Below the pieces are notes generated by a model. That model was given only the letters and a program-made list of their open reading frames with translations, was not told where the DNA came from and did not search any database. Positions 3,305 through 59,248 of a stretch of 64,000 bases of DNA are shown here, in pieces; position 1 is the first letter of the stretch, and each line of letters begins with the position of its first letter. Source of the stretch: Mycoplasmatota bacterium (GTDB lineage: Bacteria; Bacillota_I; Bacilli_A; Izemoplasmatales; Hujiaoplasmataceae); the NCBI GenBank assembly GCA_016342455.1, contig JAEIOE010000005.1:1-64000 (forward strand). The letters are read 5' to 3'. Made by a program: the position numbers and the translations under genes.

Positions 3305-3577
3305 ATGAATGAATACAACTATGAAGACTTCAAAAAAGATATAATTGAGTCAGGTTTAGAAACAATGTTTATATATAATGAAAAGAAATATTCTTTGTCG
3401 ATTGAACCTGACAAATCTAAACTGTTTTGCAAGAAAAAGATTAAACCTCAATGGGTTTTATATAATGAGACAGATAATTTTGAAGTAATTAAAGCACATC
3501 AAATACTAATATGTGATGAGATTATTTTAGAAGGACATAAACTTCAGGATATCTGGGGGGAAGTTCAAATTATTTAA
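3305..3577 (+). CDS. Small soluble protein, probable immunity to the preceding toxin scrap
   Basis: A 90-residue acidic soluble protein with an AGGAGATG ribosome site well placed before ATG 3305. No signal peptide or membrane helix. I do not recognise the family; the W-V-L-Y-N and QDIWGEVQI segments suggest a compact alpha/beta fold. It starts 12 bases after the end of a toxin C-terminal scrap and is of typical immunity-protein size, so immunity is inferred from position only. Confidence 0.55.
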   Translation: MNEYNYEDFKKDIIESGLETMFIYNEKKYSLSIEPDKSKLFCKKKIKPQWVLYNETDNFEVIKAHQILICDEIILEGHKLQDIWGEVQII

Positions 3578-3668: not shown

Positions 3669-3748
3669 ATATTATACTTCATTAAATGATGTATATATAG
3701 GTTGAAATATAGCAATCGAATTATATATAGAAATATACATAAATGAAA

Positions 3749-3823
3749 GCAACATTGTAAAGACAAGAGCAAAACATTGTAAAGTTTACACTGAAAAAGT
3801 GATAAACATTGTTAAGACAACAC
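3749..3823 (+). repeat. Promoter-repeat unit, copy 1 (drives the DUF5071 gene)
   Basis: First of five related units. Direct repeats of the form AACATTGTAAAGACAAG lie at 3749-3769 and about 3804-3820; between them are TTGTAA (3777-3782) and TGATAA (3800-3805) exactly 17 bases apart. Unlike the other copies it has no terminator and runs into the gene at 3851, so it probably serves as that gene's promoter. Confidence 0.7.
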
Positions 3824-3850
3824 AAATTTCTGTTAGAGTGGGGTAAAAAA

Positions 3851-4261
3851 ATGAATAGAGAAGAAATTGAAGATTTAATAGTAAAGTTAGACTGGTATGG
3901 TCCAGTTGATATACAGGATTATGCAATTCAAAAATTAATTAAGATTGATTATAGTCAATGGTATCTTATCTTACCTAAAAGAATTTACCCTAAAAAACTT
4001 TGGGAAAATGCTGCAAAAGTATTGAAGGGTAAAAAGAATAAGGAAATTAAGAGTATGACTTTAGACATGTTTCATTGGTTAAAGGACTTAAACTGGCCTG
4101 GAGTAGAAATTATCATAGAAATATTACAAAAATTACCGATTAAAGAATTAAAGATATTTGTTTCAAAAGCAATATTGATTGCAGATATTACAGGTGATGA
4201 TGAATGGAAAGAGAATATATACAATGTCTTTGGAGAAGTGTTTTGTACACAAGACGATTAA
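3851..4261 (+). CDS. DUF5071-like helical protein, probable immunity protein
   Basis: ATG 3851 gives 136 residues; an upstream in-frame start at 3809 would extend into the promoter repeat and is not preferred. The segment MFHWLKDLNWPGVEIIIEIL matches my memory of the DUF5071 family (a W-L-x-D-x-N-W-P core), small helical-repeat proteins often found beside contact-dependent or polymorphic toxins. It is soluble with no signal peptide. No cognate toxin is left nearby, so it would be an orphan immunity gene; function is inferred from family habit and neighbourhood. It is separated from the next locus by a strong terminator. Confidence 0.6.
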   Translation: MNREEIEDLIVKLDWYGPVDIQDYAIQKLIKIDYSQWYLILPKRIYPKKLWENAAKVLKGKKNKEIKSMTLDMFHWLKDLNWPGVEIIIEILQKLPIKELKIFVSKAILIADITGDDEWKENIYNVFGEVFCTQDD

Positions 4262-4358
4262 GCATTTTTCTTTCTTCAATGAATAATATTTTGAGTTAGT
4301 TTTTATAAATAAAGTTATATTGATAATTGGATTTCACTGATAGGGTTCAACTAAATAG

Positions 4359-4408
4359 AAAAAAGCATTACTCCTAAAAACAATTATTTAAAAGGAGTAA
4401 TGCTTTTT
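4359..4408. terminator. Strong bidirectional terminator
   Basis: Arms around AAAAGCATTACTCCT (to 4376) and AGGAGTAATGCTTTTT (4393-4408) pair over about 16 bases with a 16-base A/T loop and flanking A/T runs on both sides. Confidence 0.85.
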
Positions 4409-4570
4409 TAGATATTAGTAACAATAATAATATTGGTACTAACTGAGATTAGGGTTAGGTGGAGCATAAACACAGGTTATACATTTTATCAAATGCGTAA
4501 AAGATCGCAACTTATACGTGACAAGGTAATAAAAAAGTGATCTTTAAGCTTGTTAATGTATAAAAAAGAG

Positions 4571-4688
4571 CGCAACATGTTAAAGACAAGAGTGAAACAT
4601 TGAATATTTTATGCTAAAATAGTGATAAACATTGTAAAGACAACACAATAACTAACTAAGTTTATTCCAAATGGAGTAGACTTTTTTG
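4571..4688 (+). repeat. Promoter-repeat unit, copy 2, with terminator
   Basis: Direct repeats CGCAACATGTTAAAGACAAG (from 4571) and AAACATTGTAAAGACAAC (from 4627) flank TTGAAT (4600-4605) and TGATAA (4623-4628), spacer 17. A hairpin with arms at about 4658-4669 and 4672-4683 and a T-run follows, so any transcript would be only ~55 bases. The gene-free stretch 4262-4852 holds this unit, the terminator before it and the promoter at 4779; nothing else is evident. Confidence 0.75.
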
Positions 4689-4778
4689 CTTGTATTCTAT
4701 TGTATGACAATTATATTATATTAGCATATCAACTAATAATTGAATTAACACAATATTTCATTAAAATGAATAGTGGCA

Positions 4779-4807
4779 TTGACATTTCATTTATAATTTG
4801 CTACTAT
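4779..4807 (+). promoter_or_regulatory. Sigma-A-type promoter of the lipoprotein/protease locus
   Basis: TTGACA (4779-4784), 17-base spacer, TACTAT (4802-4807), about 45 bases upstream of the AAGGAG-ATG at 4853. Confidence 0.6.
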
Positions 4808-4852
4808 GAAATTAAGAAGTATCAAAATATAGCGAATATAAAGGAGATTACA

Positions 4853-5440
4853 ATGAAAAAATGCTAGTAGCTTTAATGTCTATTTTTTTTGTATTTCTTG
4901 TAGGATGCGATTCTAGTACAACAATTTATACAGGAACAATTGAAATTGGTTAAAGTGGAGGAGGAGGAGGAGGAGGAGGAGTGGCTACATGGCCAGGCAA
5001 GGTTGTTTTTACAGTACCCAATCCTGTTTTAGATGAAGAGGAATCAACGAATATTCTATTTGGTATGTCATGATTATGATCCAGGGCAATACTATTTATG
5101 GTACGAAACACATTCTAAAGCTGTATTTGTTTCACCATCTCCATCAAACCATTTTCGAGATATAGATGAATACACTATACTATATGAAGAAGATATTGAA
5201 GATTTCGTTACTGATGAATATCTTGTTAGTGGCAATACAAAAAGTTTATTTGGTGTAATAGAGTTTAATAAATCATTTGAACTATCCATATCTTCTAGTG
5301 ATATACCATATGAGCATGGAAAATTGAATTTTGTTTTATGTAGAGGATTTTTTTATGAAGATATGGAAGAAAATCTTGCGACAGTACATAAGACTATTTA
5401 TTTTACAAATACTAATGGCAACTTAGTCTTTTACGAATAA
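4853..5440 (+). pseudogene. Secreted lipoprotein gene with several lesions
   Basis: AAGGAG and ATG 4853 start a gene whose frame breaks at a poly-A run after three codons. One frame over, ATG 4861 opens a lipoprotein signal (LVALMSIFFVFLVGC, cysteine followed by DSS), then TAA at 4951, then eight GGA codons (4957-4980; Gly8) and a further 26 codons. The remaining ~125 residues (from about 5045; start-like ATG 5033) are in a third frame and form a beta-rich domain (FYLVCHDYDPGQYYLWYETH...) ending at 5440. Three breaks in one gene indicate decay; homopolymer sequencing error could explain some. It heads the protease locus and is 22 bases from the next gene. Confidence 0.6.
4957..4980 (+). repeat. 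GGA trinucleotide repeat, 8 units
   Basis: Eight perfect GGA units inside the broken lipoprotein gene, in frame as glycine codons. Changes in unit number would not shift the frame. Confidence 0.9.
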
Positions 5441-5462
5441 AAATAAAAAGGAGAAACTATTA

Positions 5463-7187
5463 ATGAAGAAATTGTTTGTTGTTTTATGTTTATCAATGTT
5501 TTTAGCGACAATAACAACTGTAGGATATCCATTACTTGATCAATCAGATACTATATCAAAAATAATATTTAATGATAGTAGTGAATCTAAATATGAAAGT
5601 GAAAATATATCAAATAAAGATGCATTTACAGAAGAAAGATACACTGTGGTACATGTTCTGATGAGTTATGATCAGTATGAACCATTAGATAATAGTATGA
5701 TTACAGATTCAAAAGTCGACGATTTAGTTAAATTAAATAGAGAAAAGGGCAAAGAGTATCATCAGTCAAAGAATCGAGAACTTTCATTAAAATTAGGGCT
5801 TGATGAAGAAAAAGATTTTTATTCAAGTATGTACACACCTTTTGTGACTTTTAAACTGGATGTGACCGATGAGGTTGATGTAAAAACAAAACTCAAAAAC
5901 TATGCGAATAGTGATGATGTTGAATTGATATATGCAGATGTGGCAGATACTTCGAATATAAAATCTGAAATGAGCACTATGTTTGGTGATATCGGTTTAG
6001 GTAGCTACTCATCTTACTCAAATTACAATGGATATGATGGGACAGGAGTTGTAATAGGTATACTCGAATATGGTGGAGCATGTCTTTTTGGTTCAGGGGG
6101 ATTAGTCGATGAAAATCACGCAAACTTTGTAGGTGTAGATTTAGAGATTCGTAATGAGTGGTATTGTAATGAAAAAGTAAGTGACCATGCTACACTTGTA
6201 GCTTCAATTGCTGGAGGAAATACTGGAATTGCTCGTGAAGCAAAAATCCTAAGTGTTCAAACAGATGCACTAGACTACTCAAGTGAGTTTGACTGGATGT
6301 TAGATCGCGATGTAAATGTAGTTAATATGAGCATAAGTGATGCAGGAATGAATGGTTATTATACTGGCAATGCAGCATTCTTGGATTTTATTGTAAGAAA
6401 TTATTGGGTGACTATAGTAAAATCTTCTGGTAATAATGGAGGGGATATAACCTCCCCCGGAACAGGATACAATATAATAACTGTAGGCTCTATATCTAAT
6501 AGTAGCACGTTAAGTACCTTTTCATCTTGGGAAGAGAATTTTACAATTAGCAAGCCAAATTTAGTAGCACCTGGATCTTCAATAAGTGCAGGGACAATGG
6601 GCCCTGCTTCTGGCACTAGCTTGTCAGCCCCTCATGTAACTGGTGCTATAGCTTTAATGATGGATAGATCATCTACTTTGAAAGCTCATCCCGAGGTTGT
6701 TATGGCTATTATTCAAGCAACTGCAGATAGTTCAAACTTAGTTTCAACCTATAATGATTATGATTCTTCAGGTTTAGAAGAGAAAATAGGAGCAGGAATG
6801 TTAAGAGTTGATAGAGCAGTTGATTTTGTATATAAGAGATCTTATCCAACATTGACAAATAATGATTATTATAGAACATATATTAGAGAAAAAAGAGTCT
6901 ATTTAAGTAATGGTGATGATTTGCAAGCGTCACTAGTGTGGCTAAAAAACATTTATCCCGATGGAACTAGTGGAGCTTTAACTCCTAAGAGTAGTACAGA
7001 TTTAGACCTAAAATTATTTAGTCCATCAGGAGCATTAGTTGCATATTCTAACAGTAACAGTTATAACCAAGAATTTATAAGGTATACTGCGACTTCTACT
7101 GGATATTATACTCTGAAAATATATCAATACGGAAATTATGCTACATATGGTACTGAATACATAGGTCTAGCTTACTGGTATAATTAA
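5463..7187 (+). CDS. Secreted subtilisin-like (S8) serine protease with beta-sandwich tail
   Basis: GGAG precedes ATG 5463. The 574-residue product has a signal peptide (1-22), a propeptide-like region to ~185, an S8 catalytic domain (about 186-460) and a C-terminal PPC-like beta domain (about 475-574, with DLDLKLFSPSG and TGYYTLKIYQYG). Catalytic histidine is H242 (DHATLVASIAGG), oxyanion asparagine N324 (SSGNNGG) and nucleophile S386 (GTSLSAPHVTG). The place of the catalytic aspartate is taken by Glu202 in VVIGILEYGG. The domain is otherwise well conserved, so the enzyme may be slow, altered or a pseudoenzyme. Target unknown; its flanking lipoprotein genes suggest a surface-attached complex or a self-processing exported system. 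Confidence 0.88.
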   Translation: MKKLFVVLCLSMFLATITTVGYPLLDQSDTISKIIFNDSSESKYESENISNKDAFTEERYTVVHVLMSYDQYEPLDNSMITDSKVDDLVKLNREKGKEYHQSKNRELSLKLGLDEEKDFYSSMYTPFVTFKLDVTDEVDVKTKLKNYANSDDVELIYADVADTSNIKSEMSTMFGDIGLGSYSSYSNYNGYDGTGVVIGILEYGGACLFGSGGLVDENHANFVGVDLEIRNEWYCNEKVSDHATLVASIAGGNTGIAREAKILSVQTDALDYSSEFDWMLDRDVNVVNMSISDAGMNGYYTGNAAFLDFIVRNYWVTIVKSSGNNGGDITSPGTGYNIITVGSISNSSTLSTFSSWEENFTISKPNLVAPGSSISAGTMGPASGTSLSAPHVTGAIALMMDRSSTLKAHPEVVMAIIQATADSSNLVSTYNDYDSSGLEEKIGAGMLRVDRAVDFVYKRSYPTLTNNDYYRTYIREKRVYLSNGDDLQASLVWLKNIYPDGTSGALTPKSSTDLDLKLFSPSGALVAYSNSNSYNQEFIRYTATSTGYYTLKIYQYGNYATYGTEYIGLAYWYN

Positions 7188-7206
7188 AGGCAGAAAGGTG
7201 AAGTGA

Positions 7207-7746
7207 ATGTATATGTCTAAGAAAACTCTTTTTCTTCTTTTGGTATTAATGCTAGTCCTTTTGAATGGGTGCCAGATAAGAAAATATGACTCGTATGATG
7301 CAGAAAAATATGCGGATAAGAGTCTAAATATTGATGTAAAAAGTATCTTTTGTACAAGTGAAATTGGATTTAAGGGAAGCAGTAAATATGACTTAGAGAG
7401 TGATGAGAAAGAAATATGTTTCATTTTGGGAGAAGACAAAGGTACAGAGTATGTATATAGTTATGGTTCGAGAACTAATACTAAGCAAATAGACGCTGAA
7501 CCTACAATCTCTTCATCAGATTTGCTTGATTATCTTGATGAAATAAATATAGATATATTGTATTGGAAGTTTATCTATTTGGCAGAATTAGATGCTTTAG
7601 TATATCAAATCACAACAAATGATTCTAAAGAGTTTTTTATCTTCTCAGAACAGTCGGTAAATAAGTACTATGTCGCTACATCTGATAATGGTTTAATTGA
7701 AATCAACTTTCAAGAGTTCATTGAACGTGTATTTGCTGAGGAATAG
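7207..7746 (+). CDS. Lipoprotein of unknown function
   Basis: GAAAGGTG lies ahead of ATG 7207 (ATG 7213 is an alternative). The 179-residue product has a hydrophobic signal and lipobox LLNGC (Cys22) followed by an acidic, mixed alpha/beta domain without recognised motifs. It starts 19 bases after the protease stop and is almost certainly cotranscribed, so it may anchor or inhibit the protease; that is inference from position. Confidence 0.75.
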   Translation: MYMSKKTLFLLLVLMLVLLNGCQIRKYDSYDAEKYADKSLNIDVKSIFCTSEIGFKGSSKYDLESDEKEICFILGEDKGTEYVYSYGSRTNTKQIDAEPTISSSDLLDYLDEINIDILYWKFIYLAELDALVYQITTNDSKEFFIFSEQSVNKYYVATSDNGLIEINFQEFIERVFAEE

Positions 7747-7867
7747 TTATTCGAATTGAGCTGAACTGTGATAGAAACTTAACAGAAATAAGATATATAT
7801 ATATATAATAAATATCAATCAAATAACAATAATTTTAATATTGTTTATCAAGGGTAAACAAAACAGG

Positions 7868-7900
7868 GCAGCTAAGTTAAATGAAATTTAGCTGCTTTAA
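7868..7900 (+). terminator. Hairpin, weak terminator of the protease locus
   Basis: GCAGCTAA (7868-7875) pairs with TTAGCTGC (7888-7895); the following U-run is short and interrupted. Confidence 0.5.
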
Positions 7901-7993
7901 TAATAGAAATGATATCTTCTTAAATATGTGTGTCAAAATGGACTGTGATGGAAAAAAAAGTGATTTTTAAGCTGGGTTATGTATGCAAAAGAG

Positions 7994-8127
7994 CGCAACA
8001 TGTTCAAGACAAGGGTAAAACATAGAATATTTTTACACAAAACAGTGATAAACATTGTAAAGACAAGACACGAAAATTATACCAAGTTTATATAAATGTT
8101 AAAAACGGCCAAATATGGCCGTTTTTA
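7994..8127 (+). repeat. Promoter-repeat unit, copy 3, with GC-rich terminator
   Basis: Direct repeats CGCAACATGTTCAAGACAAG (from 7994) and AAACATTGTAAAGACAAG (from 8050) surround TAGAAT (8023-8028) and TGATAA (8046-8051), spacer 17. The terminator differs from the other copies: AAAAACGGCC (8101) pairs with GGCCGTTTTT (8118-8127). Confidence 0.75.
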
Positions 8128-8134
8128 CTTATGA

Positions 8135-8160
8135 CGCAACATGTTAAAGTCAATGTAAGA
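8135..8160 (+). repeat. Degenerate scrap of the promoter-repeat unit
   Basis: CGCAACATGTTAAAGTCAA resembles the first direct repeat of the five larger units but the promoter and second repeat do not follow. The rest of the gene-free stretch 7747-8581 holds copy 3, the tRNA-like scraps at 8243-8297 and otherwise nothing I can identify. Confidence 0.5.
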
Positions 8161-8242
8161 GCGGTTGATGGGGGTTGAAATGTATTGATATTCGAGTAAA
8201 ATTGAAGATATTTTTAATGTTTTCTAAGTATTAAATCGTATA

Positions 8243-8297
8243 GACCGTGGGGCGGACTTGAACTTTTATTTAGGGTAGCCGGCGATGGGACTTGAAC
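8243..8297 (-). other. Two tRNA-3'-end-like scraps
   Basis: Read on the minus strand, 8297-8275 is GTTCAAGTCCC followed by ATCGCCGGCTAC, the layout of a tRNA T-loop/T-stem plus acceptor strand. 8263-8243 gives GTTCAAGTCCG and CCCCACGGTC, of the same type. The matching 5' T-stem and the rest of the tRNA are missing, so they are not genes. Such 3' tRNA pieces are typical of attachment sites left by integrated elements. Confidence 0.35.
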
Positions 8298-8581
8298 TTT
8301 GATTTGAAATGACTTGATAAGGGTTTTATAATGAATAAAAATTACTTTAACAGGAATTGATAAAGAATTTTTAAGTCGTATTGAAATCACAAAATCAAAA
8401 TGTTATAATTTGTGAGTAGGATTTATTTTTGGGTCTCAAATACAAGCTAGAATTACATATATAATATCTAACTTTTTAGATATTAAATGAAGTTATTGGT
8501 TAGTATTTATCAGCAGTTTAAAAGTTTTATTAAGAGAGTCAGTAATTCAATTTAGAAGTCTATTAATTATATGACGTTCAA

Positions 8582-9280
8582 ATGGGTTGGTATTATCTTC
8601 AATCTAGATACTATAATCCTGAATCTTGCAGATTCATTAATAATGATGTAATAATAGGTGAGTTTGCATCTGGCAATTCAAATATCTTCTCTTATACAAC
8701 TAACAACCCAGTAAATTATGCTGATTCAACAGGATATGCGAGATACAAGAATATAGGAGTAGGAGTTCAAATAGCTTTCTCTGTTTCGATATCTTGGGTA
8801 TCATTCTCTGGTGGATTCGAGTTAGTTTGGTATACCTCTCAACAAGTTAAGGTTGGAAGAGCATCCAGATATGTCCCACATGTTTATGGGTATGTTGAAG
8901 CTGGTCTTGAGTATTTGTATAACGGTATGGGTGTCATAGATAAATTGATAGAAAGTTTAACGAAAACTGCTAGTAATCCAAAAGTTTATTCAGCAGGAAT
9001 TAGTTTGTCAGGCTTTGAGATAAGAGGAAACAAGAAATTTACTTTGCCAAATCATTACTCAGAAGGGTTTAACACAAGAACTATAAATTTTGGTTATGGT
9101 AAAACATATTATTCATGGTCAAAGTATTGTAAAGTGTATGGTGCAGGTGTTTATTTATGGGGTTACTCATTAGGAATATCTAGATCTAAGAGTTATTATT
9201 ATTATCTAGGAACCGCAACAAGTATGATAAGAACGCTAATGGGTGTTTTAGGCATTAGTACAAGTAAACCATCAGTTTAA
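8582..9280 (+). CDS. Orphan Rhs C-terminal tip with end of Rhs core (toxin, copy 2)
   Basis: The first ~50 residues are the end of an Rhs/YD core: MGWYYLQSRYYNPESCRF and YTTNNPVNYADSTG are the hallmark 'YYLxxRYYDPxxGRF ... NNPVxYxDPxG' boundary of polymorphic toxins. Core coding continues upstream only to about 8567 before a stop, so the ~1500-residue Rhs body is missing and this is a displaced tip. The ~180-residue variable domain is rich in Gly/Ser/Tyr and alternating hydrophobic residues (VQIAFSVSISWVSFSGGFEL), suggesting amphipathic beta strands, with a conserved end shared with 2273-2701. No nuclease motif is visible; a membrane target is inferred from its membrane immunity partner. Confidence 0.75.
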   Translation: MGWYYLQSRYYNPESCRFINNDVIIGEFASGNSNIFSYTTNNPVNYADSTGYARYKNIGVGVQIAFSVSISWVSFSGGFELVWYTSQQVKVGRASRYVPHVYGYVEAGLEYLYNGMGVIDKLIESLTKTASNPKVYSAGISLSGFEIRGNKKFTLPNHYSEGFNTRTINFGYGKTYYSWSKYCKVYGAGVYLWGYSLGISRSKSYYYYLGTATSMIRTLMGVLGISTSKPSV

Positions 9281-9297
9281 TTCAGGAGGATGGACGT

Positions 9298-9771
9298 ATG
9301 GAGTTTGAAATATTATATGATTCACATTCATATGCACCAAAAACATTTATACCAATATTCTTAGCTTTGTTATTTGTTATTATAGGAGTTATAATATTGA
9401 GACAGAAAACCGGGTCAGATACAGGTCCAAAAGCAATGATTGCAGTCGGGACTATTTTGATTTTGTTTCTAATTCTAGGTTATGTATCTGATAGGAAAAA
9501 CGTAATTAAGCCATATTTAGAGGGTGATTATGAGATTGTTGAGGGCTATCCTGTAGATTTTGAGTATACCGAATCATTCTCAGGTAATGACTATTTCTAT
9601 ATTGATGGGGAACTATTCATACTTGGTGCTACTAGAGCGCCTGGACTTCAACAAACTGCCTACCAAGGAGGACCAATTGATTCTGAAGATAACTATTATA
9701 GAATCACTTATGTTTCTTTTGGTGAAAACAATTATATTTTTAAAGTCGAGATAGTTGTAGAATCTAATTAG
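9298..9771 (+). CDS. Two-helix membrane immunity protein of the Rhs tip (copy 2)
   Basis: CAGGAGG lies ahead of ATG 9298, 17 bases after the toxin stop. The 157 residues comprise two membrane helices (about 17-34 and 47-63) and a C-terminal soluble domain, colinear with the protein at 2716-3189 (VEGYP, FYIDGEL, APGLQQTAYQGGPI, RITYVSF). Conservation is strongest in the soluble part. As toxin copy 2 is complete from the core boundary onward, this pair could still be functional as a cassette if placed behind an Rhs body. Confidence 0.75.
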   Translation: MEFEILYDSHSYAPKTFIPIFLALLFVIIGVIILRQKTGSDTGPKAMIAVGTILILFLILGYVSDRKNVIKPYLEGDYEIVEGYPVDFEYTESFSGNDYFYIDGELFILGATRAPGLQQTAYQGGPIDSEDNYYRITYVSFGENNYIFKVEIVVESN

Positions 9772-9774
9772 TTT

Positions 9775-9798
9775 AGGGGGATACTATCCCCCTTTTTT
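9775..9798 (+). terminator. Terminator of the toxin/immunity pair
   Basis: AGGGGGATA and TATCCCCC form a tight hairpin around a single C-type turn, followed by six T residues. Confidence 0.85.
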
Positions 9799-9809
9799 CA
9801 TGAAGAGAT

Positions 9810-9930
9810 CGCAACACGTTCAAGACAAGGGTGAAACATTGAATATTTTTACTAAAAATAGTGATAAACATTGTTAAGACAAGACATTTTTCAGAACCAA
9901 GTTTATCCCTAAAAGGATAAACTTTTTTTG
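9810..9930 (+). repeat. Promoter-repeat unit, copy 4, with terminator
   Basis: Direct repeats CGCAACACGTTCAAGACAAG (from 9810) and AAACATTGTTAAGACAAG (from 9866) surround TTGAAT (9839-9844) and TGATAA (9862-9867), spacer 17. The hairpin AAGTTTATCC/GGATAAACTT with seven T residues (9899-9928) ends the unit. Confidence 0.8.
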
Positions 9931-9997
9931 TTGAATAAAAAAAATTGAATAATTTCAGGATAATCGGAAATCAAAAAAAAAAAATATGCGCGCCTTG

Positions 9998-10026
9998 TTG
10001 ACAGATGATTTTTGCTGTGATAATAT
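9998..10026 (+). promoter_or_regulatory. Consensus promoter of the radical SAM operon
   Basis: TTGACA (9998-10003), 17-base spacer, TAATAT (10021-10026), then a ~45-base leader to the CGGAG ribosome site of the gene at 10081. Confidence 0.8.
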
Positions 10027-10080
10027 GATAAATGATATAAGTCAAAAACAAATGAAAGAAGAAATCAATTCGGAGTTTAT

Positions 10081-11490
10081 ATGGATATAGATAATCTTAT
10101 GAAAATAGAGCTAAGTGACTGTATAATTATTGTTAATACAGAGAATGGTGATGTAATCGAAGTTGACAAGAGGCTATTTAATGATAAGAAGGCTTTAAAT
10201 AAAGAACTAATTAAGAACAATTTTTATGAAAAGTTACTATATTCAATGAAATTTAGTAAAGATTCATTTAAAACTGTATATATAAGTTTACATATATCAA
10301 GTAAATGTAATATGAATTGTAAGTATTGTTTCATGAATGATAGAAAGTACAATAATCTTTCATTTGAGGATTCAAAGAAATTCATTGATATGATAATCGA
10401 TGAATATCCAAATGCTGGTAAGTATATAGTGGATCCTACTGGAAGTGGAGAACCACTATTAGAATTAGACAATTTATGCAAAATAGGTGAATACTGTAAA
10501 CAAAAAAGTGACGACCTTAAGAGAGAAGTATTGCCAATGATAGTTACTAATGGTCTTTTACTAACAGAAAAAGTAGTAAAAAGACTAAGGGAATCAGGGG
10601 TCTTATTTGGAGTTAGTTTAGATGGAGATAAAAAGACTAACGATATATATAGATATGATTACTTAGGAAATGGAACCTATAAAAGAGTTATTAGTAATGT
10701 TAAGAAAATTAAAGATAGATCTCTTATGGGTGTAGCTCTAACTATAACAGATAAGAATATGGACTTAGTTAAGAACTTAAAACACTTAATAAAGTATTTT
10801 CCAACTGTTAGTATGAAACCAGTTAGAGTTATAGATTCTAATATTGGAATAAATGAATCTAATATTGATAAGTTAAAGAATTCTTATACAGAATTATATG
10901 AGTTCCTATTAAAACAAACAACTAAAGGTAATTTAGAGTACCTTTCAGCTATTCTCAATGGAGATGACTATTTTGGTAAGTTCTTATTAAGAAGCATATT
11001 ATGTATAAAAGTAACTACTAGATGTGACGCTGGAGTTGGGAGATTTTCTTTAGCACCTGATGGATTAATATATGCGTGTCCAGGAGCTATAGATATATCT
11101 GAATTAGTAATAGGTTCTTTAGAAAAAGGCATAGAAAAAGAAAAAAGAGATTTCTTATGGAATACTCTAGTAAATAGAAATAAATGTCAAGACTGTTACG
11201 CAAAGTTTGTATGTGGAGGAGAATGTTTTGTGAATGCATATTATTCAACTAAATCAATAACTGAAAAAGATGATGTTATGTGTGAATTGAAAAGACACTT
11301 ATTCAAGTTATCATTAGCGTTCAACCACTATTTAAAACAAATGGAGTGTTACAGTGTAGTTATAAGGGGGTGTGTTGAGAAGACTAAAAGGTTTGATGAG
11401 GAGAAGGAAGTAACTAACTTTCTTAAGAGAAATCCAAATGTAAGTTTCAATGATATTAAGTATCATAAAGCTTATATCGATCGTAAGTAA
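10081..11490 (+). CDS. Radical SAM/SPASM peptide-maturase-like protein
   Basis: The 469-residue product has an N-terminal ~60-residue segment of the sort seen in peptide maturases (IIIVNTENGDVIEVD), a radical SAM barrel with C76-x3-C80-x2-C83 (KCNMNCKYCF), GSGEPLLE as the SAM-binding glycine block, and a C-terminal SPASM domain rich in cysteines (RCDAGVGRF, YACPGA, KCQDCYAKFVCGGEC, VMCE) for two extra Fe-S clusters. This build fits enzymes that modify ribosomal peptides or activate sulfatases; the N-terminal segment favours peptide or protein modification. No short Cys-rich precursor is visible upstream; the next gene, a large exported protein 29 bases away, is the best substrate candidate. 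Cytoplasmic, oxygen-sensitive. Confidence 0.85.
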   Translation: MDIDNLMKIELSDCIIIVNTENGDVIEVDKRLFNDKKALNKELIKNNFYEKLLYSMKFSKDSFKTVYISLHISSKCNMNCKYCFMNDRKYNNLSFEDSKKFIDMIIDEYPNAGKYIVDPTGSGEPLLELDNLCKIGEYCKQKSDDLKREVLPMIVTNGLLLTEKVVKRLRESGVLFGVSLDGDKKTNDIYRYDYLGNGTYKRVISNVKKIKDRSLMGVALTITDKNMDLVKNLKHLIKYFPTVSMKPVRVIDSNIGINESNIDKLKNSYTELYEFLLKQTTKGNLEYLSAILNGDDYFGKFLLRSILCIKVTTRCDAGVGRFSLAPDGLIYACPGAIDISELVIGSLEKGIEKEKRDFLWNTLVNRNKCQDCYAKFVCGGECFVNAYYSTKSITEKDDVMCELKRHLFKLSLAFNHYLKQMECYSVVIRGCVEKTKRFDEEKEVTNFLKRNPNVSFNDIKYHKAYIDRK

Positions 11491-11519
11491 ATATAATTTT
11501 ATTATACAAGGAGAGAAGG

Positions 11520-13199
11520 ATGAAGAAGAAAATATTATTGGTATCTATCCTATCGTTAATTATTTTTGGTTTGGTATCAGCAAATCAACATAAAGCATAT
11601 GCATATTCAGTTGATGAAAATTTAGAAGAAGAAAAAATTGGAATTTCAAAGAATGAACAAGAATTCTTTGATAAAAAAACAGCTGAACAAAAATTATTAG
11701 AAACTAAAAATGATATTATGATAGTAGATACTATTAACAACCGAGATAAAGAAACTATAACTGTAAAAGGTGTAGAATACGAAAAAGATGCACTTATATA
11801 CTCTGTATATAGTGCAAGTGCAAATGGGGAATTGGAAGAATATATCACAGAAGACTCAAAGAATATTGATGATACTACTAAGTTAATACTACAAAGTTTT
11901 CAAAATAAAGCTATCAGCGAAGATTTATCATATAATGATATAGCAATTCAGTTTGATGACTCTAAGAGTATTACTTTAGATATATCGTTGGTTATTGATA
12001 TGTTACCAAAAGAAGTAATAATTGATAGTAGTTCTGTTCAAACAAAGGCTACTTATTACTATGAAACTGTATATGTAGGATATTATGAAACTTATAATTA
12101 CCTGTGGACAGATACGGGGATATACAGTATTCAAGCTGAATATTATAAAGATATTTTTGGGAATACTATTTATACAGGATCTACAAGATATGTCTTAAAT
12201 GCACACTTTTGTACTTATGATCATATAAATACTGTAGAGTTTGACTATCAATCTTATAGCAATATAGGAGTAGATGGAAGTTCTGCCCCACTTGCAAATA
12301 TACATTTGATTTATGATTATTGGGGTAAGGAGAAAATGATATTAGAGTCTGATGATATTGGTGTTGCTTACAAAATATCACAGGAAGTTCATTATGACAG
12401 AAATCAATATAATAAGATAAACGGATTATCTGTTGATGTTATGTATTCTTCTGAAAGTGAAATTCCTTTATTATCTTGGACATATGCAGCGATTGGCAAC
12501 TATTTTCATAAGTTATTATTAACTAACTCAGATAATAATAAGTATACAAAATCTACAGAGTATTATGATGTGAACTTAGGAGTTAATGTAGATGGAAGCT
12601 TGGAGTTAGTTTGCGATGAAAATGGAGATGTTGAATACGAAGACTTAGTAACTTTTACGTTTAATTTTGGAGTAGGAAAATCAGATCCAGAGGTAGAAGT
12701 TATTTCTGATGCACATTATATAAGGGATGTTTACCCTTATTTAATTTGGGGAAACTCAGTAGTTGATTATAACAACCATACACCGTTTGAAAGATTTATT
12801 TGGGACAAGGCTTCTTTAGATAATAATATAACAGCAAGAAATGCACAACAGGAGCCATTAACAGATATGTACTATATGAGTTTGGGAAGCGATAATAGTG
12901 TTGATGACAATGATGGGACAATTATTCCTTTAAGTGTTCAAAATAATGCTTGTCGTTGGGATATTTTCTTTAACTATATACCTGATCAGTACATAGAAAA
13001 AAATCAATATACAAACTATAATTGGGCCTTAAAAATAACTGGACAATACAGTGATATACCAGGGATAATAACTAAGTTCGAGGAATGGGATTCGGTAATA
13101 TATAATAGAACAGGGGAGTATCTTGTTATGGTTGGAATAGAAGATTCTGATGGGAATAAAAGAACACAAATCATTAAAGTAATTGTGTCAAGTTGTTAG
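11520..13199 (+). CDS. Large exported protein, partner of the radical SAM enzyme
   Basis: GGAGAGAAGG lies ahead of ATG 11520. 559 residues with a signal peptide (MKKKILLVSILSLIIFGLVS, likely cut before or after AYAYS), a charged linker (~30-150) and a long beta-rich, Tyr/Asp/Asn-rich region. Cysteines are few (NAHFCTYDH, LVCDENG, NACRWD and a terminal SSC), possible modification points. The end (YLVMVGIEDSDGNKRTQIIKV) resembles an Ig-like strand pattern. I do not recognise the family. Operon position after a SPASM maturase suggests it is modified or needs modification of a neighbour. Confidence 0.7.
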   Translation: MKKKILLVSILSLIIFGLVSANQHKAYAYSVDENLEEEKIGISKNEQEFFDKKTAEQKLLETKNDIMIVDTINNRDKETITVKGVEYEKDALIYSVYSASANGELEEYITEDSKNIDDTTKLILQSFQNKAISEDLSYNDIAIQFDDSKSITLDISLVIDMLPKEVIIDSSSVQTKATYYYETVYVGYYETYNYLWTDTGIYSIQAEYYKDIFGNTIYTGSTRYVLNAHFCTYDHINTVEFDYQSYSNIGVDGSSAPLANIHLIYDYWGKEKMILESDDIGVAYKISQEVHYDRNQYNKINGLSVDVMYSSESEIPLLSWTYAAIGNYFHKLLLTNSDNNKYTKSTEYYDVNLGVNVDGSLELVCDENGDVEYEDLVTFTFNFGVGKSDPEVEVISDAHYIRDVYPYLIWGNSVVDYNNHTPFERFIWDKASLDNNITARNAQQEPLTDMYYMSLGSDNSVDDNDGTIIPLSVQNNACRWDIFFNYIPDQYIEKNQYTNYNWALKITGQYSDIPGIITKFEEWDSVIYNRTGEYLVMVGIEDSDGNKRTQIIKVIVSSC

Positions 13200-13209
13200 G
13201 TGGAAAATA

Positions 13210-13656
13210 ATGAGAAAGTTATTTAATATACAAACAATTCTATTGTTAATTATATTTGCTATTTTGTATTATATAATGATCCGTTTTTTAGATTCATATT
13301 TATTGATTCAGAATACTGTTATTATATTTATACCTTCAATTATAATTATATATGATATTTATATGAGATTTATTAAGAGAATGAGTATTAAGCATAATTT
13401 ATATTCTTTTCAAAAAATATTTTTGATTTATTACATGTTTATCAATACTGTAAATGTAATATTCGTGTGGGGAAATAATGAAGTATTGGTGTATGTTTTA
13501 TATGTGTTGATACCCGGTTTAATATACCTTTTATTGTCTCGTTTAATTTTAATATTAAGAGCTAAGAAAGATAGTATTGTAGGATATTTACCTTTTATCT
13601 TATTAGTTGTTTATTGGAAATTTTTAGCGTCATTAATGTGGTTATCTGGACTGTGA
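13210..13656 (+). CDS. Small polytopic membrane protein
   Basis: ATG 13210 follows TTAGGTGG, beginning just after the preceding stop; an upstream GTG at 13183 overlapping that gene has no ribosome site. About 148 residues with four to five hydrophobic helices and basic loops, no recognised motif. Cotranscribed with the maturase and exported protein; export, immunity or sensing are all possible roles. Confidence 0.65.
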   Translation: MRKLFNIQTILLLIIFAILYYIMIRFLDSYLLIQNTVIIFIPSIIIIYDIYMRFIKRMSIKHNLYSFQKIFLIYYMFINTVNVIFVWGNNEVLVYVLYVLIPGLIYLLLSRLILILRAKKDSIVGYLPFILLVVYWKFLASLMWLSGL

Positions 13657-13704
13657 TGGAAATTAAACAATTGTTAGTTGTGGTATCATATGCCTACAAA
13701 TGAA

Positions 13705-13826
13705 CGCAACTTGTTCAAGACAAGGGTGAAAAATTGAATATTTTTAGTAAAAACAGTGATAAACATCATTAAGACAAGACAGTATTACTTATTAAGTTTA
13801 TTTCTTAAAAGAAGTAAACTTTTTTA
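13705..13826 (+). repeat. Promoter-repeat unit, copy 5, with terminator
   Basis: Direct repeats CGCAACTTGTTCAAGACAAG (from 13705) and AAACATCATTAAGACAAG (from 13761) surround TTGAAT (13734-13739) and TGATAA (13757-13762), spacer 17. A hairpin AAGTTTATTTCTT / AAGAAGTAAACTT with T-run (13794-13826) ends it. The rest of 13657-13978 shows nothing further. Confidence 0.75.
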
Positions 13827-13978
13827 TTTATTAAAACTTGGCTGCTTTTATAGTGTTAATTTCTTAAGTTTCATTTAAGATTTATATTATAAAATAATAA
13901 TATGGATAGAACTAATCTATTTGAAAGATCTTTTATTAGCTTATTTAATAAAGAACTTAAAGAAATTGGAGATTATAT

Positions 13979-15394
13979 ATGAAAAAAACATTAACTATTT
14001 TGTCGTTTTTTATACTAGTATTTATTGTTGCTAGTTGTGATTCAACTTCGTCTGTTGAAAATACAACGTTAAATACTACTATAGAAACTTCAGAAGATGT
14101 ATTAAATACAGATACAACTGCTACAACAGAAAACAGTGCTGTAACAACAGAACTATCTGGATCAGTCTATCAAGAAGATGAGATGGTAGATGAAGTAGTA
14201 TACCCTCACAATGAAGTGATTGAAGTAAATATTGATATTACATCGGAAAATTATAATGATATTATAAATAATGCTATGGATGAAGAGTACCATACATGCG
14301 ATATCACTTATAATGGCTACTCCTTAACAAATGTAGCTATTAGAACAAAAGGAAATTCAAGTTTAAGAGATGTCTTTAATGCAAATGGAGATCGTTTTAG
14401 TTATAACATCGATTTAAATTACTATGAAAAACAAGATTTATTTGGAATTGATAAATTAATCTTAAACAATTTATATATGGATCCTTCTATGATTGCTGAA
14501 TATATTACATATGAAGCATTAGATTATTTAGGTGCGGTGTCGTCTAGAACAACATTTGTAGCTTTATCATTTAATGGCGAGTATTATGGCTTGTACCTCT
14601 CTGTAGAACATGTTGGAAATGAGTTCTTAGACACAAATTTTAATAATTCAGATGGAGAGCAGTATAAACCAGATAGTGGCGTTGGAGCGAATTTAAATTA
14701 TATATCAGATTCTACTAATTATTCTGCTTTAGTAGATGAAAACTCAGATGATTTATCTAACAAAGCAATAATTGAACTAATGAAAAGAATTGACTCTGGA
14801 GATGATTTAGTAGAAATCTTTAATGTAGAATCTTATCTAAAGTACCTAGCTGTATCAACTTATACAGTAAATCTTGATTCATATCAAGGAGGTATGTATC
14901 ATAATTACTATTTATATAATAATGACGGAGTTTTTGAATGGATTGCTTGGGATTTGAATATGGCTTTTAATGGTTTCCCTGGAGTTCGTATCACTGATTT
15001 ACAAGCTACTGAATATCTAATTGATGAACCGGTTATAAACAGTTTGAGTAGTTATCCTTTAATTGAATCTATATTAAGCAATGAAACTTACTTAGAAATG
15101 TATCACAGTTACTTACAAGAATTAATTGATGGATATTTTAACATAGAAACATTTGAACAACGAGTTAATGAAATTGCTGAAATGATAGATGATTATGTAG
15201 AAACAGATCCAAGTAGTTTTTATACTTATACAGCGTATCAAAACGCATTGTTTACAGATTCAACACTTTCATATAGCATCTTACAATTTGTGGAAACAAG
15301 ATCAGAAAATATTGATAAACAATTATCAGGATTAATACCTAGCACTAATGGTGGAAAAGGGAATGTAGTTTCAAGTACAAGACCACCAAGATAG
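13979..15394 (+). CDS. CotH-like kinase lipoprotein
   Basis: A lipoprotein signal (lipobox VASC, Cys20) is followed by a Thr/Ser/Glu-rich linker and a CotH domain (about 75-420): EVNIDITSENYNDI, the R-T-K-G-N-S-S block, FGIDKLILNN, YYGLYLSVEHV and WIAWDLNMAFNGF, the last being the metal-binding aspartate motif of this atypical protein-kinase family. CotH proteins phosphorylate surface proteins and occur in spore coats but also in non-spore formers and cellulosomes. GGAG precedes ATG 13979. The 471-residue size is usual. The substrate would be an extracellular protein; none is evident next to it. Confidence 0.85.
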   Translation: MKKTLTILSFFILVFIVASCDSTSSVENTTLNTTIETSEDVLNTDTTATTENSAVTTELSGSVYQEDEMVDEVVYPHNEVIEVNIDITSENYNDIINNAMDEEYHTCDITYNGYSLTNVAIRTKGNSSLRDVFNANGDRFSYNIDLNYYEKQDLFGIDKLILNNLYMDPSMIAEYITYEALDYLGAVSSRTTFVALSFNGEYYGLYLSVEHVGNEFLDTNFNNSDGEQYKPDSGVGANLNYISDSTNYSALVDENSDDLSNKAIIELMKRIDSGDDLVEIFNVESYLKYLAVSTYTVNLDSYQGGMYHNYYLYNNDGVFEWIAWDLNMAFNGFPGVRITDLQATEYLIDEPVINSLSSYPLIESILSNETYLEMYHSYLQELIDGYFNIETFEQRVNEIAEMIDDYVETDPSSFYTYTAYQNALFTDSTLSYSILQFVETRSENIDKQLSGLIPSTNGGKGNVVSSTRPPR

Positions 15395-57007: not shown

Positions 57008-57580
57008 GAAGATTTTTATGCATATTGTTGAAACACTCCAGTAATGTATTCAGACATAAGCGGATATTCATTTAAAAGTATATTTAATGATATCCGTGTT
57101 TGGTGGAATTCTGTACCAGATAATGTGGGTTATAAGTCTTCTGGTAGCTCAGTATGGAAATACGTTGGTTCAGCATTACTTGGTGTAGGAATGAGTGGGG
57201 GCTCTAATTACTTCGATTATGCAGGAAAACTTATTACATGGAACAGAGGAAACTTATATGGAGCAGTTTCATCATCCTTAACTTGGATTGGAGGAGGAAT
57301 AACAATTCTTTCTATGCTCTATGAATATGGAGAAATATGGAACTCTGACAATGGTAATACTAATGGAAATAGGCTAATAAAATGCTTAATTGAAACAACC
57401 AAAACAGTATCGACAATATTTGCTATAAGTGGTTTCGCTACAATCGCAGGGGCGTCACTAGCTGCAACGGGAACACTCTTAGCAACTCCAGTCATTCTGG
57501 CTGCTGTTGCAGTTATAGGGGTTGTATTAATTGTAAATTATGGGGCAGATTGGTTATATGATGAGCTTGATATAGAGTGA
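57008..57580 (+). CDS. Orphan Rhs tip with glycine-rich, pore-like domain
   Basis: One frame from 57014 reads FYAYC, a TGA at 57029-57031, then NTPVMYSDISG: the Rhs core boundary (YAYCGNNPVMYxDPSG) with its Gly GGA turned into TGA. Translation can start at ATG 57044 (VMYSDISG methionine), giving 178 residues. The variable domain has Gly-rich segments and long hydrophobic stretches near its end (IFAISGFATIAGASLAATGT, LLATPVILAAVAVIGVVLIV), suggesting membrane insertion. A two-helix membrane protein follows 12 bases on, as immunity partner. No Rhs body is present. Confidence 0.65.
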
Positions 57581-57592
57581 AAGGGGAATAAC

Positions 57593-58006
57593 ATGACTAC
57601 TTATAAGTACAAAAAACATATAGTAATAGTTCAATATATTTTTGTTGGAACGGTTATTCCGGTAATAGCTTTACTATCAACTTTGAGATTATTTTCCATA
57701 GAAAGATTAAATCAAAATGTGATTATTACACTTTTTATAGTATGGTTATTATTTAATTTCGGACTTGTTGTGACACTTTTACATAAACTAATTGTTAGTC
57801 ACGACGCATTATGCAATAAACTTATCATTGGATCTAATACAATAAAATGGAGAGAAGTTAATTCAATTAAATTTAGAGCATTCAGAAAGAGAATAACTAT
57901 TCAACAAGATGATAAAAAGAGAATAGTGATATGCTCTGATTACAATGACTTTGAAAAACTATGCATTCAAATATGGGAGTTGTTAAAAGACTTCGGAAAA
58001 GAGTAG
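57593..58006 (+). CDS. Two-helix membrane immunity protein with PH-like domain
   Basis: GGGG lies before ATG 57593. 137 residues: two N-terminal membrane helices (about 10-30 and 42-62) and a soluble ~70-residue domain (IKWREVNSIKFRAFRKRITI) like bacterial PH domains (YcxB-type). It sits directly behind the Rhs tip 57044-57580 and shares its plan with 58817-59248. Immunity by blocking a membrane toxin is inferred from layout. Confidence 0.65.
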   Translation: MTTYKYKKHIVIVQYIFVGTVIPVIALLSTLRLFSIERLNQNVIITLFIVWLLFNFGLVVTLLHKLIVSHDALCNKLIIGSNTIKWREVNSIKFRAFRKRITIQQDDKKRIVICSDYNDFEKLCIQIWELLKDFGKE

Positions 58007-58241
58007 ATTATTCCAAGAGATTTAGAAATATATTTTAGAAATTTAATGAAAAATGTTTAGGGAAAGATATTATTTTATGTCTAATAAAACCTATAAACAG
58101 ATTTCTTTTCTTATGAATCTACAATTATATAGATTGTCAAAAATTTGCAATAGAATACTTTTTTAAAATGAAGTCAACTTAAAGAAGACCAACCCAAAAG
58201 CACTTATTTGAGGGGCGTTTCACATTTATTGACAAGGTGTA

Positions 58242-58817
58242 GTGCTTATGTCTGAATACATTACTCCAGTAATGTATTCAGACATAAGCGGAACCTATGC
58301 GGTTTTTAATAATTATATAGGTGGATCTCATTCGTTAGCAAATCATGTGAACAAAACAAGTCAATCATTTAAATTGATTTATGATCCTTATATAAGTACA
58401 ATTTTGGGTAATGTGTCCTACACAATCACTGAATCAGATAAAACCGCTAGTTTATTTTATACTTATTCGAGTTTTGGAACAGCATCTGCTAAATATGGAG
58501 CGGGTATTAATTTAGCTGGTTGGATTGGATTATATGGGTTTGTTTCAACTCCAGGGGATTTCGGTATGGGTGTTCAAATAACGCCGTGGGTCCATGCATC
58601 AGGACAAATAGGTTTGAGTGGTATAGGAGTTTCAGTAGGAATTAATATTGGGAATACAGCACATGATATTTCGGTTAATGTTGGTTGGGTAACTGTTGGC
58701 ATTTTTGTAATAGCTACTTTACCAATTCCAGGAGCAAGAGCTGTTGCAACTACAGCTGCAGCAATCATTATTGTGGTTGGTATTATTCAATATGGAGATG
58801 GAGGATATTACTTCTAA
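58242..58817 (+). CDS. Orphan Rhs tip with amphipathic/glycine domain
   Basis: ITPVMYSDISG near the start is the Rhs core boundary; ATG 58242, 58248 or 58272 could start translation, none with a clear site. The ~180-residue variable part has alternating hydrophobic residues and glycine (GAGINLAGWIGLYGFV, GMGVQITPWVHASGQIGLSG) and two hydrophobic stretches at the end, again pointing to membrane activity. It is unrelated in sequence to the tip at 57044 beyond the boundary motif. Its stop overlaps the immunity start by one base. Confidence 0.65.
   Translation: MLMSEYITPVMYSDISGTYAVFNNYIGGSHSLANHVNKTSQSFKLIYDPYISTILGNVSYTITESDKTASLFYTYSSFGTASAKYGAGINLAGWIGLYGFVSTPGDFGMGVQITPWVHASGQIGLSGIGVSVGINIGNTAHDISVNVGWVTVGIFVIATLPIPGARAVATTAAAIIIVVGIIQYGDGGYYF
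58244..58289. repeat. Perfect 19-base inverted repeat at an Rhs core boundary
   Basis: GCTTATGTCTGAATACATT (58244-58262) and its exact reverse complement (58271-58289) flank ACTCCAGT, itself partly self-complementary. The right arm encodes VMYSDIS of the toxin tip; the left arm looks like a distorted AYC-L-N stretch of the Rhs core. Confidence 0.9.
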
Positions 58818-59248
58818 TGGTACAAGATATTACTTATTATGAGAATACATATAAATATAGACAGAGGATTATAATAGCGGCAATTTTGTTTGTTATTGGT
58901 TTTGTTATTGGTGTTTGTGCGATAATTGTATATCATATTATAAAGCCTATTGATGTTTTAGAAATTTATCAACCAAAAGGAGAAGAGTTTCTCATTACTA
59001 TAATATGTATGGTTTTCTCGATTCTCTTTGGTGTTTCAGCATATAGATTAAATAACTATGTACAATCCATTCATATAGACAAAAGCGATATTAGATTAGT
59101 TGTTAAAAAAAAGGAAATAACTTTATGTAAATCCGATTTAGAGAATTTTCAAATTCGTATAAATTACTTGTTTCAAATAGAATATATTCTAAATTTTAAA
59201 AATATAACTAATGTACTTATCATATCAAGTAAAAGAAGGGTATATTAA
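58817..59248 (+). CDS. Two-helix membrane immunity protein, short form
   Basis: ATG 58817 overlaps the toxin stop (TAATG), so translation is coupled. 143 residues with two helices (about 18-42 and 55-75) and a truncated PH-like domain (YVQSIHIDKSDIRLVVKKKE), ending at SKRRVY, about 20 residues earlier than the 57593 protein. The longer frame opening at 58685 is out of place and overlaps the toxin. Confidence 0.65.
   Translation: MVQDITYYENTYKYRQRIIIAAILFVIGFVIGVCAIIVYHIIKPIDVLEIYQPKGEEFLITIICMVFSILFGVSAYRLNNYVQSIHIDKSDIRLVVKKKEITLCKSDLENFQIRINYLFQIEYILNFKNITNVLIISSKRRVY

Follow-up and report, generated by a model that had tools for sequence, protein, structure and literature searches.

Repeat units of a Mycoplasmatota genome as candidate right ends of mobile gene cassettes anchored at tRNA genes

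We have analysed five copies of a short repeat unit in a 64,000-nucleotide stretch of DNA from a Mycoplasmatota bacterium (assembly GCA_016342455.1, contig JAEIOE010000005.1, positions 1 to 64,000), which we call the window. We consider, with a probability of roughly 0.7, that these units are the right-end attachment half-sites of small mobile cassettes that carry no integrase, and that the cassettes are probably mobilised in trans by phage integrases. At the level of sequence comparison, we found cassette exchange, a family of sites, a uniform polarity, boundaries exact to the base, anchoring at tRNA genes and a prophage with ends of the same kind. From these we infer a pair of serine recombinases as the enzyme, a circular intermediate and mobilisation in trans. 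The cassettes follow tRNA genes in head-to-tail order, and the units look more like places where bacteria trade weapon and immunity genes than like genes for tiny RNAs.

Results

Structure of the five units

All five units lie on the plus strand and are 82-99% identical to a single 77-mer, which as a blastn query recovered them far above chance, with E values of 1.8e-13 to 4.3e-33. They are found where a preliminary description of this DNA had placed them (3749, 4571, 7994, 9810 and 13705). A broader site model gave exactly five matches in the window, the same five, and a sequence-only model built on the five units and one genomic copy found six strong copies in the genome, the sixth being a full copy on contig C9. 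The earlier statement that copies are missing from the rest of the window holds for the model matches; two degenerate fragments also occur, both within the array (Table 1).

Each unit contains AACAT three times, at offsets 4, 26 and 58 of the 77-mer, giving spacings of 22 and 32 bp. The outer direct repeats, described earlier as about 55 bases apart, are 54 bp apart from start to start, and the third repeat lies between them. TGATAA is invariant in these copies and stands 17 bp from the putative -35 in each, as had been noted. The -35 sequence itself varies: it is TTGAAT in only three of the six copies (units 2, 4 and 5), TTGTAA in unit 1, TAGAAT in unit 3 and CTGTTA in the C9 copy.

A unit ends at a sharp boundary directly after ..ACA. 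Units 2-5 and the C9 copy each have a terminator hairpin behind them, of different sequence in the case of unit 3, and each hairpin is situated outside the unit. Unit 1 has no hairpin and leads into an open reading frame at 3851, as the preliminary description had it. The hairpins belong to the left end of the next cassette, which accounts for the terminators earlier assigned to four of the units; the hairpins were correctly seen, and their assignment was not.

Exchange of cassettes at an exact and polar boundary

In an all-against-all comparison of flanks, homology breaks precisely at the boundary after ..CA. A 2.09-kb cassette is about 93.5% identical in two genera (genomes G030 and G010), and both of its neighbours differ. 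Contig C47 of the window's own genome (G000) and another metagenome-assembled genome (MAG) share a cassette end at 95% identity over 1.33 kb and have nothing in common downstream of it. Within the same genome, the DNA 3' of unit 3 is 96.5% identical over 569 bp to the DNA behind a site of another type (type III, below) on contig C36; the homology begins at the first base after the boundary, and the DNA upstream is unrelated. Identical cassette-start sequences were found behind differing site types. The earlier suggestion that the units are sites where cassettes are joined is strongly supported by these exact breaks together with the tRNA anchoring described below.

Orientation was counted with a 14-base end pattern, allowing one mismatch. 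Among 60 sites at 20 loci, orientation was concordant within each locus and there were no mixed loci. This polarity is not due to gene orientation, because in G030 the genes between two plus-strand sites lie on the minus strand.

A wider family of sites

The five units are members of a larger site family in Acholeplasmatales/Izemoplasma-like MAGs. Weaker relatives detected with the model in other genomes are clustered and near-identical across genera, and a pattern scan of a species-genome collection gave matches confined to MAGs labelled Acholeplasmataceae, Tenericutes, Bacillales (UBA) or Bacillota. By eye, we distinguished types I-V, the window units being type I. In types I, II and III, three repeats follow each other at spacings of 22 and 32 bp and the site ends in GACAASACA; type IV has a AGGGGTGCGTAA repeat and terminates in CAACACA or CAACCCA; type V is a further repeat form. 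The site types finish in CA, with no conservation past it, and the promoter hexamers are absent from types II-V.

The right-end repeats of types III and V resemble tRNA 3' ends more than shuffled sequences do (fractions 0.005 and 0.007), and the likeness of types I, II and IV is not clearly above shuffles (0.07-0.10). A search for carriers of type II sites among phages, plasmids and viral contigs gave no match. In a contig classed as viral (IMGVR_UViG_3300012178_000489; our locus L172), a class c left end comes after a type III site, which fits a link to prophages.

Anchoring at tRNA and tmRNA genes

The same cassette starts that follow sites were found without a gap after the 3' CCA of tRNA-Leu(GAG), tRNA-Leu(CAG), tRNA-Ser(GGA), tRNA-Cys, tRNA-Val, tRNA-Gly and tmRNA, as called by ARAGORN and inspection; the end of a site and the CCA of a tRNA are therefore interchangeable as left neighbours. 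Where sites are present, the RNA gene lies upstream of them on the same strand. The start class TATAARAAGCATAGGTTTGATAC was found in 44 of 150 relatives, and a control pattern in none.

Contig C9 offers a counterpart to cassette 2 of the window. Its copy of the unit lies ahead of a subtilase and lipoprotein pair homologous to that of cassette 2 (subtilase identity 87%), and this cassette ends at a tRNA-Lys-like 3' fragment, not at a site. The left end of cassette 2 is of the same class as the sequence 3' of the tRNA-Lys-like CCA on C9.

Many cassette starts contain terminators, and an element landing behind a tRNA gene would thus bring a replacement for the terminator that it displaces. In some arrays at tRNA-Leu(GAG), in G030, G010 and G009, the CCA runs directly into truncated cassette genes; at three such loci (L071 4671, L072 and L076 6944), it is fused to the interior of Rhs or other genes. 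These joints look as if a cryptic partner within a cassette had been used, or as if a deletion had followed later.

A prophage with paired serine recombinases

Several copies of one element occur in the genome of the window. It has two adjacent genes for large serine recombinases, a helix-turn-helix gene and a tyrosine recombinase gene. The serine recombinases have Resolvase, Recombinase and zinc-ribbon domains, and the best named family is CcrB (E 1e-38 to 1e-43), at 132-148 bits, the cut-off being 900. With its recombinase end, the element adjoins either a type III site (contigs C31 and C96) or the CCA of a tRNA or tmRNA gene (C9 and C47).

In a genome assembled as a single contig (G021), the element is a complete tailed prophage of 47.4 kb, with genes for portal, terminase, head protease, capsid, tape measure and tail, and its recombinase falls in a PHROG integrase family. 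Its left end lies directly after the CCA of tRNA-Cys, and at the other end it finishes with a same-strand type III site. A homologous prophage sits at the tmRNA gene on C47 of the window's genome, a contig where cassette sites of types II/III also occur, on the same strand. A XerC-like integrase was considered as an array-linked enzyme and rejected, as it is part of the prophage and not of the arrays.

Possible symmetry of matched cassette ends

When a type IV site is joined to the start class TATAARAAGCATAGGTTTGATAC, the sequence reads AATTGTATCAAA-15 nt-CA-15 nt-TTTGATACAATT, with perfect 12-bp arms about CA. We scored such dyads on the two ends of the same cassette, since neighbouring ends belong to different elements and are uninformative. 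The own-end score peaks at zero offset. Cassette 3, which lies between units 3 and 4, is among the better matches: its two ends pair as a dyad around CA (8 of 10, score 0.58).

Cassettes of the window and their cargo

The cassettes carry varied accessory genes (Table 1). A terminator-type left end was not recognised in cassette 1, and no right end was identified for the fifth cassette.

Table 1. Sites, fragments, cassettes and cassette left ends in the window.
Feature	Position	Strand	Description
Unit 1	3744-3824	+	Type I right-end site, boundary after 3824; alignment and model matches
Unit 2	4566-4647	+	Type I right-end site, boundary after 4647; alignment and model matches
Unit 3	7989-8070	+	Type I right-end site, boundary after 8070; alignment and model matches; exact homology break against contig C36
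Unit 4	9805-9886	+	Type I right-end site, boundary after 9886; alignment and model matches
Unit 5	13700-13781	+	Type I right-end site, boundary after 13781; alignment and model matches
Degenerate unit fragment	4499-4540	+	65 bp upstream of unit 2; repeat family D3
Unit-repeat fragment in cassette 3	8135-8153	+	Repeat family D4
Cassette 1	3825-4647	+	DUF5071 gene 3851-4261 (Pfam PF16804, E 9e-9) and unit 2
Cassette 2	4648-8070	+	S8 subtilase 5463-7187 (PF00082), lipoprotein-like 7207-7746, smaller open reading frames; ends with unit 3
Cassette 2 left end	4648-4686	+	Terminator hairpin (ATAACTAACTAAGTTTATTCC..)
Cassette 3	8071-9886	+	Rhs-tip gene 8582-9280 (TIGR03696, E 7e-12), likely immunity gene 9298-9771; ends with unit 4
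Cassette 3 left end	8071-8130	+	CGAAAATTATACCAAGTTTATA.., terminator hairpin; 96.5% identity to C36 from first base
Cassette 4	9887-13781	+	Radical SAM/SPASM enzyme 10081-11490, exported protein 11520-13199, membrane protein 13210-13656 (calls by Pfam/NCBIfam); ends with unit 5
Cassette 4 left end	9887-9931	+	Terminator hairpin
Fifth cassette left end	13782-13830	+	Terminator hairpin; CotH-kinase gene 13979-15394

The radical SAM/SPASM enzyme of cassette 4 (within 10081-13656) belongs to a PapB/SCIFF-like group and travels with the large exported protein. Homologues of cassette 4 lie near sites in G010 (locus L083 on contig C12), where the pair is also accompanied by an S8-type protease; identities between the two genera are 54% and 57%. 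The pair is possibly a peptide- or protein-modifying system, and a precursor was not identified.

Huge Rhs genes (2079-2278 aa) lie directly upstream of type III sites at three loci of the same genome (L081, L165 and L166, on C31, C36 and C39), and the arrays downstream of them hold alternative tips and immunity genes. In the window, further Rhs-tip-like and immunity-like gene pairs occur at 57044-59248 without these sites. At the contig start, upstream of the array, positions 1-2280 contain transposase remnants, IS110-like and IS3-like, together with a repeated integrase segment.

Discussion

Considering the boundaries and the anchoring together, we propose that a cassette extends from boundary to boundary and would consist of a left end, typically with an intrinsic terminator, accessory genes and a right-end repeat site finishing in CA. 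An array starts directly behind the CCA end of a tRNA or tmRNA gene, and this end sets its orientation; an incoming cassette would insert between ...CA, whether of the RNA gene or of an existing site, and the next left end. The left-end terminator would then substitute for the one that the tRNA gene has lost. The catalyst is likely a CcrB-like large serine recombinase, encoded by two adjacent genes and supplied by tailed prophages with the same type of end. In a circular form, the right and left ends would abut to give a dyad about the central CA, like the attP of a serine integrase, and the CCA end of the tRNA gene would act as attB.

Several points weigh against this proposal. No recombinase gene lies inside the array of the window, and neither a circle nor an empty site was observed. 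Close homologues of the recombinases are weakly associated with the sites, occurring in 4 of 10 genomes with a model match (one of these matches being doubtful) versus 24 of 140 others, and the same prophage also encodes a tyrosine recombinase. Scored over 50 cassettes, own ends reach a dyad score of 0.323 compared with 0.300 (sd 0.011) for shuffled partners, a modest excess. The tRNA gene expected to anchor the array of the window would be beyond the contig start, the first 2.2 kb being filled with transposase remnants. The genomes used are assemblies of uncultured organisms, and many are fragmented.

The tyrosine recombinase suggests another catalyst for the same cassettes and sites, namely the XerC-like enzyme of the prophage (about 305-310 aa) or a host Xer acting at tRNA 3' ends. 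The 3' ends of tRNA genes are classic targets of tyrosine integrases, the enzyme sits in the same element, and some right ends on C9 are tRNA 3' fragments. However, tyrosine integrases normally want a longer block of identity, and the sites and the tRNA end have little beyond CA in common; moreover, it is the serine recombinase genes, not the tyrosine gene, that adjoin the end of the element. We therefore regard a tyrosine recombinase as an unlikely catalyst. We also give little credence to passive repeats, in which shuffling would come solely from homologous recombination between dispersed copies. Repeats that are near-identical across genera, and contigs that often end in them, would agree with this explanation, but such recombination could break anywhere in the repeat, and the observed breakpoints fall at one base. 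In addition, differing site types precede identical downstream sequence, no mixed orientation occurs and tRNA ends stand in for a site, which makes passive shuffling very improbable. A two-ended transposon with an inverted copy of the same end was also considered and rejected: allowing one mismatch, the arrays contain no opposite-strand copies of the end, and the shared cassette shows no target duplication.

The preliminary description had also offered operator-controlled promoters or tiny RNAs as the function of the units, and neither is upheld as a conserved function. A regulator bound to the helically phased repeats around TGATAA would drive transcription of short RNAs that end at the terminators or, in the case of unit 1, of the gene that follows. 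The invariant TGATAA at 17-bp spacing in type I copies, repeats on one helical face and the terminators downstream speak for this. On the other hand, the -35 is not conserved, types II-V lack the hexamers, and the terminators are those of the next cassette and also stand directly behind tRNA genes. No match to an RNA family was found, and promoter-like hexamer pairs are no commoner in the region than in shuffles. A match to the Rfam family mir-981 at 3339-3422 is a chance match (24 bits versus a gathering score of 51). Two LytTR regulators in the genome could favour regulated promoters, but neither is adjacent, and a LytTR operator was rejected. Regulated promoters are thus a quite improbable main function, and a secondary promoter role may exist for type I copies such as unit 1. 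Integrons, in which the IntI integrase moves attC-site cassettes, resemble these arrays in being polar, made up of accessory cassettes between sites, and sharply bounded at the 3' side. Nevertheless, IntI (TIGR02249) was above its cut-off in none of 14 genomes, nine of which have sites. The DNA folds of 22 sites on both strands were mostly within 2 sd of shuffles, shared no structure and were not attC-like, and the arrays begin at tRNA ends. An integron is accordingly very hard to reconcile with these data, and we return to right-end attachment half-sites as the preferred reading.

Among known systems, the nearest precedent is given by the ssrA-specific islands of Dehalococcoides, which are tandem and co-oriented behind the 3' end of an RNA gene, have the CcrB-like DsiB at the left edge and include members that lack an integrase and have been proposed to move in cis or trans (PMC3146451). 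Here too, a CcrB-like integrase adjoins a boundary at an RNA 3' end (tmRNA, tRNA-Cys, tRNA-Leu). Unlike those islands, the right ends here are repeat-array sites with little beyond CA in common with the tRNA end, several tRNAs are used in addition to tmRNA, the cassettes are of small size, and a tailed phage is the autonomous member. In Dehalococcoides, the 3' end of the RNA gene recurs as a direct repeat at the far boundary. This was not found in G021, whose far end is a type III site, and tRNA 3' fragments occur in some elements only. The CcrAB systems of SCC and the Enterococcus cassette chromosome act at the 3' region of rlmH, with direct repeats of about 50 bp and a TATCATAA motif (PMC6222049). 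They have in common with our system a pair of neighbouring genes for large serine recombinases, a location at a fixed 3' end in the chromosome, a cargo that varies and, for the proposed circular form, inverted repeats in the att site. Here, however, the gene pair is found at the end of prophage-like elements and not in the small cassettes, the anchors are tRNA and tmRNA 3' ends rather than rlmH, most cassettes have no target repeat at the far end, and the family cut-offs for CcrA/B/C are far from reached.

Integrons, too, are polar arrays in which the cassettes, with or without a promoter, are set off by a site that has a sharp boundary, whereas the present arrays have no IntI, no attC-type fold-back and no attI, and are anchored at tRNA ends. 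Tycheposons are alike in being cargo elements that build islands at tRNA genes; they are described as having tyrosine recombinases and partial tRNA repeats. In the rAID arrays of Bacteroidales, orphan genes of immunity type all point the same way and have conserved motifs between them, and an adjacent tyrosine recombinase has been invoked for acquisition (PMC12247911). In contrast, no tyrosine recombinase lies beside the arrays examined here, and the intergenic site is an attachment end. In the open-access literature searched, we found no description of such a system in this bacterial group.

More tentatively, and with somewhat less than an even chance, paired serine recombinases of phages may recognise the T-arm/CCA end of tRNAs together with repeat-array sites that imitate it, and so collect genes for toxins, immunity and peptide modification into integron-like libraries, which would stand behind many tRNA genes throughout a bacterial class. 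If our preferred reading is true, these bacteria would have integron-like gene libraries without an integron integrase, with tRNA 3' ends as landing sites and phage recombinases as the engine. This would explain the transfer of Rhs tips, immunity genes and other accessory genes from genus to genus as clean units. It would also become possible to compute cassette boundaries in Tenericutes-like genomes, which are poorly known, and the system would provide serine recombinases whose target is unusual.

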